From assembly GCF_027451485.1 (NCBI RefSeq), contig NZ_DAIDJE010000156.1, positions 62,001 through 126,000 on the forward strand: a stretch of 64,000 bases of DNA, in the 5' to 3' direction. Below the pieces are notes generated by a model, which was given only the letters and a program-made list of their open reading frames with translations, searched no databases and was not told the origin of the DNA. The translations under genes and the position numbers were made by a program. How positions within the stretch are numbered: position 1 is the stretch's first letter; each line of letters opens with the position of its first letter. Of this stretch, positions 14,926-22,932 are shown piece by piece. Source of the DNA: Bradyrhizobium sp. GTDB lineage: Bacteria > Pseudomonadota > Alphaproteobacteria > Rhizobiales > Xanthobacteraceae.

Positions 14926-15726
14926 ATGCGTTCCCTTCTCGTTGCTGCGACGACCCTGGTGCTGTTTGCCGCGAGTGCCGCACAGGCCAAAGTTTCAATC
15001 ACGGTGGACAAGGATGCCCAGATGATGACCGTCGCCGTCGACGGTGTCACGCGCTATCACTGGCCGGTCTCCACCGGCAATCCATCGCACGAGACGCCGA
15101 ACGGCACCTTCCGCACCTTCCGCATGGAAGCGGATCACTTCTCCAAGGAATTCGACGACGCGCCGATGCCGCATTCGATCTTCTTCACCAAGATCGGGCA
15201 TGCGATTCATGGCACCGAATCCGAAAGAAGTCTCGGCATGCCGGTCTCTCACGGTTGCGTGCGGCTGTCGCGCGCCAACGCCTCGACGCTCTACGCGCTG
15301 GTCGAACAGCAGGGCGTGCTCAACACCACTGTGACGCTGACCGGCTCCTCCACGGTGGCGATCGCCCGCAAGCGCGGCAACACCGCGATCGCGCGCGCCG
15401 AACCCTCGCAGCCCGACCAGCAGTATCAGCAGCCATATCAGCAGCAATATTCGAATTCCGGACAGCCGATCATGCTCACGCCGCAGCCGCAGTTCTTCCC
15501 CGGCCGCCATCCTGTGCAGCAGCAGGCCGACGACGGCTATATCTATCCGGCCGATGGCAGCTCGACCGACCAGCGCTATCCGGCGCCTCGCGGCGTGCGA
15601 CGTTCTTATGACAGGCAGGCCGATTACTATCAGCAGCAGCCGCAGGGTTATGACGCCTGGGGAAATCCCTACCAGCAGCAGCGCAGCTACTATCAGCAGC
15701 AGCAGCGCTCCTATTATTCGAACTGA
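14926..15726 (+). CDS. L,D-transpeptidase (YkuD domain) with Q/Y-rich tail
   Basis: A 266-residue exported protein: a Sec signal (MRSLLVAATTLVLFAASAAQA), then a YkuD domain (about 24-145). The catalytic motif is HGCVRLS with Cys111 and His109. YkuD enzymes form 3-3 peptidoglycan crosslinks or attach proteins to meso-diaminopimelate in the periplasm. From about residue 165 the C-terminus is low complexity, rich in Gln, Tyr, Pro and Ser with repeated YQQ and SYYQQQQ blocks, and is unlikely to be catalytic. GGAGG lies 4 bases before the ATG. Confidence 0.88.
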   Translation: MRSLLVAATTLVLFAASAAQAKVSITVDKDAQMMTVAVDGVTRYHWPVSTGNPSHETPNGTFRTFRMEADHFSKEFDDAPMPHSIFFTKIGHAIHGTESERSLGMPVSHGCVRLSRANASTLYALVEQQGVLNTTVTLTGSSTVAIARKRGNTAIARAEPSQPDQQYQQPYQQQYSNSGQPIMLTPQPQFFPGRHPVQQQADDGYIYPADGSSTDQRYPAPRGVRRSYDRQADYYQQQPQGYDAWGNPYQQQRSYYQQQQRSYYSN

Positions 15727-18492: not shown

Positions 18493-20346
18493 TCAGAACC
18501 CCATCAGACGGCGGATGATACCAGCCGCACTGGCGTGATAGCGATGGCGGTAGTGGTGGCGCGGCGCAGGGCTCGTCCCCTCATCCGAAGCCGAGGCCTG
18601 GACATCACGCGACGGCCCGATCGATTCGAACTGCGCCTTCTGTTCGTCACTCAGTTGGGCGTAGAAATCGTCGAGCGCCGGCTTGACGGTTTCGACTGCC
18701 TGCAACATCGCATCCAGCCGTTTGGCTGCGGCCGCGAGCCGTGCCGGCGGCGTCAGCGCCTCGTTGGGCTCGCAGGTGTCCTTGAGCATGTCGGCGGCCC
18801 TGGCAGTGGCATCCTTCAGATTGTTCAGGCTCGCCTGCTGGGCCGCGGTTGGATGCACCTTTCGCTCGATCTCGGCCGCCGGCCAATCGGTCGCGCCCGG
18901 TTGTCCGCTGCCGCAGGACTGCGCCATCGTCCCCTGGTTCTCGCGGCCACGACGCTGTTCTTCGCCAAGAGCGTTCAGCCGCGACTTCTGCTCGTCACCG
19001 AGCAGGCCCCAGAAATGATCGAGCGGAGGCTCGACGATGTTGATCGCAGAGATCATCGCCTCGAGTCGCGTTTGCATCGCGGCCAACCGGCCGGGCGCGG
19101 TGGATGCGACCTGTGATGGACAGGCGTCCTTGATCAGCTGGGCCGCTTTCACGGACGCATTGGCGAGATCGTCGAGCGCCTTGCGCTGCTCGTCATTCGG
19201 ATTGACGGCTTGCTGGATCTTGTCGATCGGCAGACCGGCAATGTCCTGAGTGTCCTGGCCGCACATTTGCGCCACTTCGTTCGGCTGGCTCGGCGCGGCT
19301 GCGCCTCCGGACGACGATGCGGTACCGCGACCGGCATAACCGCCAGCATATCCGCCGCCAGCATAGCCGCCGTAACCACCATATCCGCCGTCGCCGTAAG
19401 GCAGATAACCAGCAAGATCCTCATAGTCGTAGGGCGAGAAGATGCCGGCATAGATGTCGCCATAACCGTAATCCCAGAACGAGGGGCCGTAGCCCCACAT
19501 CGCGTAGTCGTACATATCGTCGTAGGCGAACGGCCAGAACAGCGGACCGACCCAGCCGTAGCCGCCGTTGCCGTGCTGCCACCAGCCGCCATTCCAGGCG
19601 CCATGATTCCACCCGGCATTGCGGCCGCGCCAGCCGGCCGTCGCCGCTGCCGCTGCGATCTGCGCGCGGTTACCCGGATTGTTCAGCGCATTGTGGTTAC
19701 GCATGGCACCGGCAACGTTGCGGCCGGCAAGCGCGTTATGAACGGCGTTGGCGCGCATCGCGCCCTGATGATTCAGACCCCCATGATTTAGACCGCCGGC
19801 AACATTGTGGCCAATCGCGGCGTGACTGTTGCGGAAGCTGCTGCCGCCCGCCGCCCGCGAAAATGCGGCTCGGGTGCCTGCTCCGCCAACGGTTCGCCCG
19901 GCGACGCCGCGGCCGCCGCGTCCGCCGCCCGCGAAATGCCCGCCACCGCGTGCACCAGCGAAGTGCCCGCCACGCGCACCCGCGAAGTGTCCCCCATGCG
20001 CACCGCCGAAATGACCACCGCGCGCACCGGCGAAGTGTCCACCGCGCGCACCACCGAAATGACCACCACCAAAATGCCCGCCGGCGAAATGCCCTCCGCC
20101 ACCATGGAAGCCGCCAAAGTGTCCGCCGCCGCCGTGGAAGCCACCAAAGTGCGCTCCGCCGCCGCCGAAATGCGCGCCGCCACCGCCGAAGTGTGCACCA
20201 CCGCCATGGAAGCCTCCCCCACCACCGTGGAAGCCGCCTCCGCCACCACCATGAAAGCCACCTCCGCCGCCGTGCGGACCTGCATACGCAGCGGCTGATA
20301 GTCCAACGGACAACACAACGACCGACAACCATCTAACGTTAGACAT
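18493..20346 (-). CDS. exported His/Gly-rich protein with two LTXXQ-like domains
   Basis: A 617-residue exported protein. Residues 1-22 are a signal peptide (cleavage after AYA). Residues 23-147 are almost only Gly, His, Phe, Ala and Arg in HGGGGxF / GGHFAGARGG repeats. Then comes an Asn/Ala-rich stretch and a Tyr/Gly/Asp/Trp-rich part. Two homologous domains (about 362-477 and 478-582) each begin with CGxx, continue with an LIKDAC/LKDTC block, and end in LGDEQ or LSDEQ, a version of the LTXXQ motif of Spy/CpxP-like periplasmic proteins. The tail is RHHYRHRYH. The His density suggests metal binding, which is an inference. GGAGG lies 6 bases before the ATG. The open frame continues to 20616 without homology. 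Confidence 0.8.
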   Translation of the reverse strand: MSNVRWLSVVVLSVGLSAAAYAGPHGGGGGFHGGGGGGFHGGGGGFHGGGAHFGGGGAHFGGGGAHFGGFHGGGGHFGGFHGGGGHFAGGHFGGGHFGGARGGHFAGARGGHFGGAHGGHFAGARGGHFAGARGGGHFAGGGRGGRGVAGRTVGGAGTRAAFSRAAGGSSFRNSHAAIGHNVAGGLNHGGLNHQGAMRANAVHNALAGRNVAGAMRNHNALNNPGNRAQIAAAAATAGWRGRNAGWNHGAWNGGWWQHGNGGYGWVGPLFWPFAYDDMYDYAMWGYGPSFWDYGYGDIYAGIFSPYDYEDLAGYLPYGDGGYGGYGGYAGGGYAGGYAGRGTASSSGGAAAPSQPNEVAQMCGQDTQDIAGLPIDKIQQAVNPNDEQRKALDDLANASVKAAQLIKDACPSQVASTAPGRLAAMQTRLEAMISAINIVEPPLDHFWGLLGDEQKSRLNALGEEQRRGRENQGTMAQSCGSGQPGATDWPAAEIERKVHPTAAQQASLNNLKDATARAADMLKDTCEPNEALTPPARLAAAAKRLDAMLQAVETVKPALDDFYAQLSDEQKAQFESIGPSRDVQASASDEGTSPAPRHHYRHRYHASAAGIIRRLMGF

Positions 20347-20516
20347 CGTATTCCTCCCACCCAACGGCGGTGCTGGCATCGCACTAGCCAGATCGCGAGG
20401 CCGCACAGCGGCACAATTTCGACAATATCTCAGCAAACGCGGAGATTGCCGGGCGGGTTCCGGCTGACTGTGGCGGAAGGCTAAAATCGATTTCAGAATC
20501 GAGTTCTGTTCAGGCG

Positions 20517-22787
20517 CTATTCGCCGTCGCGAAGGCGGCGATAGACCGCGCCGAGCACATTGCAGTAGTCGTCGGTCCAGACCCGCTGGTCCGCCTTGGC
20601 ATCGGTCGCTTCCCATTTGTCGGAAGCAGCGAGCTTGCCAACATCAGCATCCGCCCGTGCGGACACCACGACATTTGTCGCGAAGATATAGTCGTCGTCG
20701 CGGCCGGAATCTTCGTCATAGACCCAGCTCTTCATCCCGTTCGCGTCCGCAATCCCGACGACGACGCTTGCGAGTTCCAGATGACGGTTCGAGACATGCA
20801 TCAGCACCACGCCTTGCGGCGCGAGCTTGTCCTTGTAGATCTTCATCGCCTCTTGGGTGGCGAGATGGATCGGGATCGCGTCCGATGAATAAGCATCGAC
20901 GATGATCAGGTCATAGAGTCCGTCCGCCTCGCGCGCAAATGTCAGCCGCGCGTCGCCGATGACCGGCCTGAAATCAGGCTGGCAGTTCTGGACGTAAGTG
21001 AAATATCTGGAATCGCGCGCGGTATCGACCATGGTCTGGTCGATCTCGAAGAACTTCCAGGCTTCGCCCGGCGCGGCCGAGCAGGCCAGCGTGCCGGAGC
21101 CGACGCCGATCGCGGCGACGCGCAACGGCGCCCCCTTGCGCTCGCGCACCGCGGTGATCGCCTGACCGATGCCGCCGTCCTTGTGATAGTAGCTGATCGG
21201 CTCGGGCCGTCCCGCGACCGGCGTGCCGTCGACATTGAGAAATTTCTGCGCACCGTGGATCGTCGTGCCGTGCATCAGGACATGGTAACGGCCGCCCGGC
21301 GTCGTCACGATCTTGTGGACGCCGAAGAAGCTGCGCACCGTATCGACCCGCCCGTCATCGGCGGGATAGACGCGCACCAATACCAGCGCCAATGCCGCGA
21401 TAGCCGCAAGCTTGAGCCGCGCGGTGTCGAACACCAGTGCCAGCAACATGCCGAGAACCGCGACGCCGCCCGCGAGATAAACGCGATGCGCCTCGAACCA
21501 TTCGAACATCTCGCCCCTCATCTGCGACGGCACGATCAGGAGGAGCGCGATCGCGACTGCAAGCGGCCACAGCCAGCGGCTCAGGCCTGGCCAGCGTTCG
21601 TTGCCGATCGGGCGGCACAACGCGGCGAGCACGATCAGCACCGGATATTCCGCGATCCAGGAAAACACATTCGGCGCGATCAACCCGGCGAACAGCCCGC
21701 CGACCATGCCGCCGAACGACAGCGCCACATAGAAGCCGGTGAGGTATCTTGCGGGAGGCCGCGTACGCGCGAGTTCGCCGTGGCAAGCCATCGCAATGAC
21801 GAAGAAGCCGAGCTGATGTCCGCCGAGCGTCAGCAGCAGATTCTGCTCGCCGCCCACGGCGAGCAGCACGATGACGCCCGCGATCGCAACCGGCTGCGCC
21901 CGCAGCATCCATTTGTGCGGCAATAACGGGCGTGTCTGGAATACCAGCACCCAGGTCAGCAGATAAAGCGAGAGCGGCAGCACCCACAGCAAGGGCGCGG
22001 CAGCGACGTCGGTCGAAATATGCGCAGTCACCGCGATCAGCAGGCCGGAGGGCACCGCGGCCAGGAACACCCAGCGCGCCCGCGTCGCGAGAGATGGCGG
22101 CGGTACCTCGCTTTCGGCCACGACCCTATCGGGCACCAGCGCCGGAGACCGCCACAGCAACAGGCCGCAGGCCGCGATCAGGGCGATCAGGAGGCCGTAG
22201 CCGCCGGTCCAGAGCAGGTTCTGCATCCTGAGTGTGAAGATCGGCTCGAACACGAATGGATAGGACAACAGCGCCAGGAAGCTGCCGATATTGGACGAGG
22301 CATAGAGGAAATAAGGATCGGTGCCATCGGGATGGCCGGTGCGAACGAACCAGGCCTGCAGCAGCGGGTTGTTCGCCGCGAGCGCGAAGAACGGCAGGCC
22401 GATCGAGGCGACAAATAGCCCGAGCAGCCAGATCGCGTAGCCTGAGGTCGGCGGTTCGCCCCAGCGCACGGCAATCGCAAGCGGCAGCGTCGCGAACGCC
22501 AGGACCAGGACCGCCACGTGCACCAGGATCGGGATCAGACGGTTATTGATCCGCATCAGAAGATGGGCGTAGACATAGCCCATCAGCAGCAGCGACTGGA
22601 AAAACACCATCGCCACGGACCATACCGCCGGCGAGCCGCCGAGCCGCGGCAGCACCATTTTGGTGAATAGCGGCTGCACCGAAAACAACAGCAAGGCGCT
22701 GACGAAGATCGCCGCCGTATAGACCGGCAGCACCAGGCGGTTGCGCGAGACCGACGGCTGGCCTGTCTTCGATTCGGCAGCGGGCAT
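20517..22787 (-). CDS. fused transporter-like membrane domain / spermidine synthase
   Basis: A 756-residue protein. The N-terminal half has about 12 or more hydrophobic segments (from LVLPVYTAAIFVSALLLFSVQPLFTKMVLPRLGG). The C-terminal 250 residues resemble spermidine synthase/SAM-dependent methyltransferases (VAAIGVGSGTLACSAAPGEAWKFFEIDQ, then YDLIIVDAYSSDAIPIHLATQEAM). Such fused-MFS/spermidine-synthase proteins are widespread, but few have a proven reaction. The ATG at 22787 is preceded by GGAG at 6 bases; an in-frame ATG at 22862 lacks support. The His/Gly-rich gene follows 170 bases downstream on the same strand. Confidence 0.85.
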   Translation of the reverse strand: MPAAESKTGQPSVSRNRLVLPVYTAAIFVSALLLFSVQPLFTKMVLPRLGGSPAVWSVAMVFFQSLLLMGYVYAHLLMRINNRLIPILVHVAVLVLAFATLPLAIAVRWGEPPTSGYAIWLLGLFVASIGLPFFALAANNPLLQAWFVRTGHPDGTDPYFLYASSNIGSFLALLSYPFVFEPIFTLRMQNLLWTGGYGLLIALIAACGLLLWRSPALVPDRVVAESEVPPPSLATRARWVFLAAVPSGLLIAVTAHISTDVAAAPLLWVLPLSLYLLTWVLVFQTRPLLPHKWMLRAQPVAIAGVIVLLAVGGEQNLLLTLGGHQLGFFVIAMACHGELARTRPPARYLTGFYVALSFGGMVGGLFAGLIAPNVFSWIAEYPVLIVLAALCRPIGNERWPGLSRWLWPLAVAIALLLIVPSQMRGEMFEWFEAHRVYLAGGVAVLGMLLALVFDTARLKLAAIAALALVLVRVYPADDGRVDTVRSFFGVHKIVTTPGGRYHVLMHGTTIHGAQKFLNVDGTPVAGRPEPISYYHKDGGIGQAITAVRERKGAPLRVAAIGVGSGTLACSAAPGEAWKFFEIDQTMVDTARDSRYFTYVQNCQPDFRPVIGDARLTFAREADGLYDLIIVDAYSSDAIPIHLATQEAMKIYKDKLAPQGVVLMHVSNRHLELASVVVGIADANGMKSWVYDEDSGRDDDYIFATNVVVSARADADVGKLAASDKWEATDAKADQRVWTDDYCNVLGAVYRRLRDGE

Positions 22788-22932
22788 GAAAACTCCGGTA
22801 ATCGGCGCGGCAGGGCGGCGCAATGGAGCATAGAGCGGGAATGCGGGCAATGCGAACTGCAATCAAACCGCTGTGCTGGTCGCCAGCGGTTCGCTATGTA
22901 ACTCATCGTGACAAATTCTGTTTGAAGCCCAC

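Follow-up and report, generated by a model that had tools for sequence, protein, structure and literature searches.

Within the 64-kb window, by which we mean the whole stretch of DNA analysed here, the minus strand carries a gene for a protein of 617 amino acids, whose parts are collected in Table 1 together with a promoter-like site that precedes it. Read mechanically, the frame gives a longest ORF that starts further upstream, at 20616. We placed the start at the ATG at 20346, where, judged by eye, a GGAGG lies six bases ahead and a signal peptide follows directly. The original prediction had called the architecture unusual, and in this respect it is borne out: namely, one open frame joins a signal peptide, a Gly/His/Phe tract, an aromatic middle and two homologous LTXXQ domains. 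Neither NCBIfam nor PHROGs assigns a family to the 617-residue protein. An antisense ORF of 339 amino acids over the repeat (19317-20336, plus strand) was also considered and set aside as probably a shadow of the low-complexity, repetitive frame.

Table 1. Positions in the window of the gene, the parts of its product and the site upstream.
Feature	Coordinates	Strand	Basis
Gene, 617 aa + stop	18493..20346	-	Frame open; ribosome-binding site; conservation among relatives
Signal peptide, residues 1-22, ending AYA	20281..20346	-	Translation; cleavage site by eye
Gly/His/Phe low-complexity tract, residues 23-147	19906..20280	-	Composition; imperfect DNA repeats
Basic, acid-free linker, residues 148-257	19576..19905	-	10 K/R, no D/E
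Aromatic, acidic module, residues 258-318	19393..19575	-	Conservation; profile searches
LTXXQ domain 1, residues 358-465, Cys 362 and 409	18952..19275	-	Pfam, hhalign, Cys counts
LTXXQ domain 2, residues 474-580, Cys 478 and 525	18607..18927	-	Pfam, hhalign, Cys counts, Spy match
EcfG-type promoter-like site, GGAAC-N17-CGTT	20436..20461	-	Bases -115 to -90 from ATG; comparative enrichment

A family scan of three neighbouring genes shows that they encode a TAXI-type solute-binding protein, a spermidine-synthase-like protein and an L,D-transpeptidase. The L,D-transpeptidase (YkuD; 14926-15726, plus strand) has a Gln/Tyr-rich C-terminal tail, and the large protein that matches a fused MFS/spermidine synthase lies directly upstream on the same strand (20517-22862, minus). 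A function based on an operon with this last gene was dropped, since among the loci examined the neighbours are shared only with L008 and L009, the matches at L088 and L094 being the genome's own. A synteny scan over ORF clusters was dominated by wrong-frame ORFs in the GC-rich DNA and was likewise set aside.

The protein scores 144.5 bits with Pfam family PF07813 (LTXXQ), where the cut-off is 24.3, and the match falls into two stretches; the two domains score 84 and 69.4 bits in a search of the genome, which holds five further LTXXQ matches elsewhere. The same family is matched by all 43 of the 43 relatives scanned. What is more, hhalign finds 38% identity between domain 1 and domain 2 across 106 aligned columns (E 4.2e-31, probability 99.9). 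The proposed tandem of homologous domains is thus supported by Pfam and by profile alignment, and weakly by the structure comparison described below; a lack of relation between the two domains, which the original prediction had named as grounds for abandoning it, was not seen. The LTxxQ motifs themselves are degenerate, reading PNDEQ and LGDEQ in domain 1 and PTAAQ and LSDEQ in domain 2. LTDAQ and LTDEQ are kept in some single-domain relatives, which ties the degenerate motifs of the tandem protein to the LTXXQ family. The cysteines are a further constant: in 139 of 148 distinct cores each domain has exactly two, and 136 of the 148 have none elsewhere in the core. The exceptions are eight cores with one cysteine in domain 2, one with three in domain 1 and 12 with an extra core cysteine. 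This conservation suggests one disulfide per domain.

The structural models lend weak support to a Spy-like fold. When the tandem is modelled alone, AlphaFold2 returns nothing but helices, with a mean pLDDT of 81.5 and a pTM of 0.79; with the module included, the mean pLDDT is 67.4 and the module itself is poorly determined. Foldseek gave no match in the PDB at E <= 0.001 for either model, phmmer found nothing there, and a profile search of the PDB produced only implausible matches, with E of 0.12 or worse. VIA-align matched Spy (5wo2_B) to domain 2 with Z 4.8, an rmsd of 3.2 and 81 of 89 residues aligned, a result that ranks 37th, among unrelated helical bundles whose Z is equal or higher. 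Spy is absent from the best 50 structural matches listed for the larger model of module and domains. In other words, the comparison yields an all-helical tandem and a moderate match of Spy to domain 2 that does not stand out from unrelated helical bundles, and no significant Foldseek match. The relation to Spy is supported by Pfam together with this one structural match, which agrees with Pfam and by itself proves nothing.

A scan of a species-level genome collection confirmed 104 relatives, 80 loci of which were kept, in records named Bradyrhizobium, Afipia or Tardiphaga, or else Xanthobacteraceae, Hyphomicrobiales or Alphaproteobacteria. We extracted 78 proteins from 77 of the 80 loci; L026, L034 and L064 were missed in this first extraction and are therefore absent from the 79-row alignment used below. 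Most of these proteins have a signal-peptide-like start and a low-complexity arm; their start codons, chosen by a hydrophobicity rule, may be misplaced. Across 38 selected relatives, the module and both domains are kept in frame at 53-84% identity. Disruption of the frame in relatives, the other finding that had been named as telling against the gene, was accordingly not seen, and a few single copies (L149, L150) look broken. Among the genomes sampled, a profile of the aromatic module finds matches in 132 of 146 from the genus and in 71 of 198 from the family. In the order and class samples, where the best 15-16 candidates per genome were scored and rare distant copies may be missed, it finds them in at least 12 of 297 genomes and in at least one of 289, the latter being the genome analysed here.

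The aromatic middle, mentioned only in passing in the original prediction, turns out to be the hallmark of the family. Its 61 residues include 20 Trp, Tyr or Phe and eight acidic residues, and none that are basic. In the 79-sequence alignment, mean column conservation over residues 261-300 is 0.88-0.95, which is like that of the best parts of the LTXXQ domains. By eye, the module resembles two copies of a unit FW-x-[FY]-x-Y-x-D-[IM]-Y. We found 159 ORFs that contain both the module and LTXXQ, a count that includes repeats of one gene under several locus identifiers, and 156 of them have two LTXXQ domains. The three with a single domain are L126, L149, where a second match sits in another frame, and L150, which has part of a domain only; in L158, at a contig end, the module stands without LTXXQ. 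For the converse search we took a tandem LTXXQ profile to 61 genomes from the family and read 30 of the resulting loci, some of which repeat genes already counted. The module was present in 18 of 18 two-domain ORFs and in none of 12 single-domain ORFs, one of which (L214) has a stop within its match; L224 combines the module with three partial LTXXQ matches. The constant unit of the family is therefore the aromatic module plus two LTXXQ domains, and the fact that the module is tied to the pair in nearly every readable ORF suggests that they function jointly.

The N-terminal arm behaves quite differently. Its 125-residue tract contains 69 Gly, 19 His, 17 Phe and 13 Ala and no acidic residue. 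The His/Gly repeat is real, yet it is the least conserved part of the protein: over residues 101-180 the 79-sequence alignment becomes gappy and conservation drops to 0.04-0.28. To compare arms, we left out five of the 148 cores because of a short arm and defined a His/Gly arm as one with at least 8% His and at least 25% Gly. By this measure 80 of the remaining 143 distinct proteins have a His/Gly arm, 16 a Gly-rich one and 47 neither, so that the His-rich tract is not conserved together with its domain in 63 of the 143. Most of the 47 are enriched in Ala, Pro, Arg or Gln, and homologues with the same core bear Gly/Arg, Pro/Ala/Arg/Gln or short tracts in place of His/Gly. What persists is positive charge, the net charge of the arm being positive in 140 of 143 distinct proteins; the median Asp/Glu content is 0% in His/Gly arms and 4.7% in those that are neither His/Gly nor Gly-rich. 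On a tree of the cores (the 143 thinned to 101 rows, computed by a quick method, with several long branches and a midpoint root), the His/Gly state requires eight changes, at least seven of which are forced by well-supported branches. In particular, a clade of 13 paralogues without a His/Gly arm (support 93) is nested within Bradyrhizobium proteins that bear one. L016 and L065 each have two adjacent paralogues of the family (L016:4752-7522 and L065:4659-7471), of which one has the His/Gly arm and the other, a member of this clade, does not.

This turnover bears directly on the original prediction, in which the low-complexity region could bind metals or phase separate, and it weakens the idea of that region as the functional heart of the protein: the region is gappy, is replaced in homologues with the same core and is missing from the nested paralogue clade. 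One can still picture a periplasmic metal buffer or sensor in which the 19 histidines would serve as ligands for Cu, Zn or Ni, with LTXXQ domains that act as they do in ZraP or CnrX. LTXXQ relatives with metal roles exist, so dense a run of histidines is what such a protein might carry, and more than half of the distinct proteins do have a His/Gly arm. However, a tract that is the least conserved part of the protein, gives way to neither His/Gly nor Gly-rich sequence in 47 of 143 cases and changes state so often on the tree argues against a His-based core function of the family, and the three neighbours scanned include no metal genes. We therefore consider this reading unlikely, and any metal binding by the His/Gly arm would be a lineage-specific addition.

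We regard as about equally unlikely a second possibility, namely that the protein is structural: its module and cationic arm would attach to the outer membrane, to LPS or to peptidoglycan, and the pair of LTXXQ domains would serve for assembly. The strong conservation of the module and the near-universal positive charge of the arm are what one would expect of such a protein. Against it stand the coupling of the module to two LTXXQ domains, with the joint function that this suggests, and the translation of the 617 residues, in which no lipobox or other anchor was seen by eye.

A feature that had gone unnoticed in the original prediction is the site upstream of the gene. Promoters of EcfG, the sigma factor of the general stress response in alphaproteobacteria, have a form in which GGAAC is followed, after 16 or 17 bases, by CGTT. 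Work on Sphingomonas gives the EcfG motif derived there as GGAAC-N17-20-GTT (PMC6599016). We first spotted the motif by eye upstream of the window gene, and in the window alone the pattern is as frequent as chance predicts (2 found, 2.13 expected); genome-wide, too, there is no excess, with 99 matches where the control has 136. The evidence for it is comparative. The strict form, GGAAC-N16/17-CGTT, occurs in 24 of 145 distinct upstream regions against one on the reverse strand, or in 13 of 52 upstream clusters against none. The form GGAAC-N16/17-[CG]GTT, which was picked after the strict one, occurs in 81 of 145 against one on the reverse strand and, by cluster, in 20 of 52 against none, leaving 32 of the 52 clusters without a site; it precedes 22 of 1510 other ORFs of the same loci. 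Spacings of 12-15 and 18-22 give at most one at the cluster level. A looser GGAAC-N17-GTT is found 71 times on the forward and 50 times on the reverse strand, the latter because 50 upstream regions of one 71-member cluster hold an inverted repeat, GGAAC-N-GTTCC. In this cluster, the largest and composed of Bradyrhizobium sequences (e.g. L027, L037, L042), the site is mostly part of an inverted repeat GGAAC-N17-GTTCC, and a dyad-binding regulator is possible there. The inverted-repeat type is absent from 19 of the 20 clusters with a site, including that of the window, and from every strict CGTT site. The genome encodes NepR, the anti-sigma factor of EcfG, and the NepR locus examined has no site of the GGAAC-N16/17-[CG]GTT type. 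Taken together, the enrichment in relatives makes the upstream site a candidate EcfG-type promoter.

The simplest reading, in our opinion, is that of a stress-induced periplasmic chaperone, since the protein has the same domain as Spy, doubled in one secreted chain, and is preceded by a site of the general-stress type. We give this reading, with both chaperone activity and EcfG control, a probability of roughly one half. The protein would be secreted to the periplasm and belong to the LTXXQ (Spy/CpxP) superfamily, its helical domain being duplicated and probably stabilised by disulfides. Having both domains in one chain probably gives the protein an internal equivalent of the Spy dimer, and the pair probably keeps hold of envelope proteins as they unfold, with no need for ATP. 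The aromatic module, conserved and acidic, would work with the pair, be it as a lid, as an internal pseudo-client or as an extra surface that contacts clients. The N-terminal tract, in turn, may be an interchangeable, cationic and disordered arm that serves as a tether to anionic envelope material or for solubility, its His/Gly make-up being one lineage's version. Finally, the EcfG-type promoter, in the window and in many relatives, would drive production during the general stress response. That said, the degenerate LTXXQ motifs, the absence of a significant Foldseek match, a Spy match no better than those of unrelated bundles and the poorly predicted module all count against such a chaperone under EcfG control, as do the chance-level frequency of the promoter pattern in window and genome, the 32 clusters that lack it, the inverted repeat in the 71-member cluster and the NepR locus that has no site; regulators and metal proteins, besides, are found among the LTXXQ proteins. 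Most of the remaining likelihood is shared by the metal and envelope-binding roles discussed above and by a signalling role. In the last, the tandem would not fold clients but detect misfolded protein and control a kinase of the envelope stress response. It can draw on the shared superfamily with CpxP and, from work on Sinorhizobium, on a CpxP-like LTXXQ protein encoded beside a Cpx-like pair and strongly induced in a tolC mutant (PMC2912261). Against it, the three neighbours scanned include no recognised kinase or response regulator, and the neighbourhood itself is rarely shared; we think it slightly less probable still than the other two.

A more speculative version of the chaperone reading, which we hold to be similarly improbable, is that of a condensate-type general-stress chaperone of the periplasm. 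Here the double Spy-like unit, locked by disulfides, would be brought together with its clients in the envelope by two opposite stickers, the cationic low-complexity arm and the acidic aromatic module; drift in the sequence of the arm would be tolerated provided that it remained basic. For the stress-induced chaperone as such, the coupling of module and tandem, along with the stress-type promoter, would offer a handle on how soil bacteria protect envelope proteins against heat, salt and drying in a compartment free of ATP. Nature, moreover, has swapped His/Gly, Gly/Arg and Pro/Ala/Arg arms on the same core, which amounts to a ready-made experiment on what such disordered arms would do for a chaperone.

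How does this protein compare with known systems? Spy of E. coli is an ATP-independent periplasmic chaperone that forms a cradle-shaped dimer (PMC4791398). The tandem protein resembles it in having an LTXXQ domain well above the Pfam cut-off, in being helical and secreted, and in the alignment of Spy to domain 2. It differs in its two domains per chain, the cysteine pair in each, the aromatic module, the long low-complexity arm and the degenerate motifs, and it is known here from sequence and models. CpxP and ZraP, LTXXQ relatives with signalling and metal roles, belong to the same superfamily, but their architecture is different, and no Cpx- or Zra-type partner was recognised in the scanned neighbourhood of the tandem gene. 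Closer at hand, single-domain LTXXQ proteins of the same bacterial family (e.g. L215, L220, L222) share the domain and the cysteine pair, and some of them LTDAQ or LTDEQ, but they have one domain, no aromatic module and, in these three, a Met/Gly-rich N-terminus. Such N-termini (GMMGPGMM-like), perhaps related to copper, are also seen in the single-domain proteins of L002 and L006 in the genome analysed here. A further LTXXQ protein of the same genus, bll6433 of B. diazoefficiens, is raised in nodules of Aeschynomene (A. afraspera) according to PMC8125078, which also reports that the PhyR/EcfG regulon is not activated in A. afraspera bacteroids. If bll6433 belongs to the tandem family, this would argue for a control other than EcfG, or for an additional one. 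No paper on the combination of the module with tandem LTXXQ domains was among the matches listed in a search of the open-access literature. LTXXQ proteins as such are well known, and what appears new here is the architecture that joins the module to a doubled LTXXQ domain.
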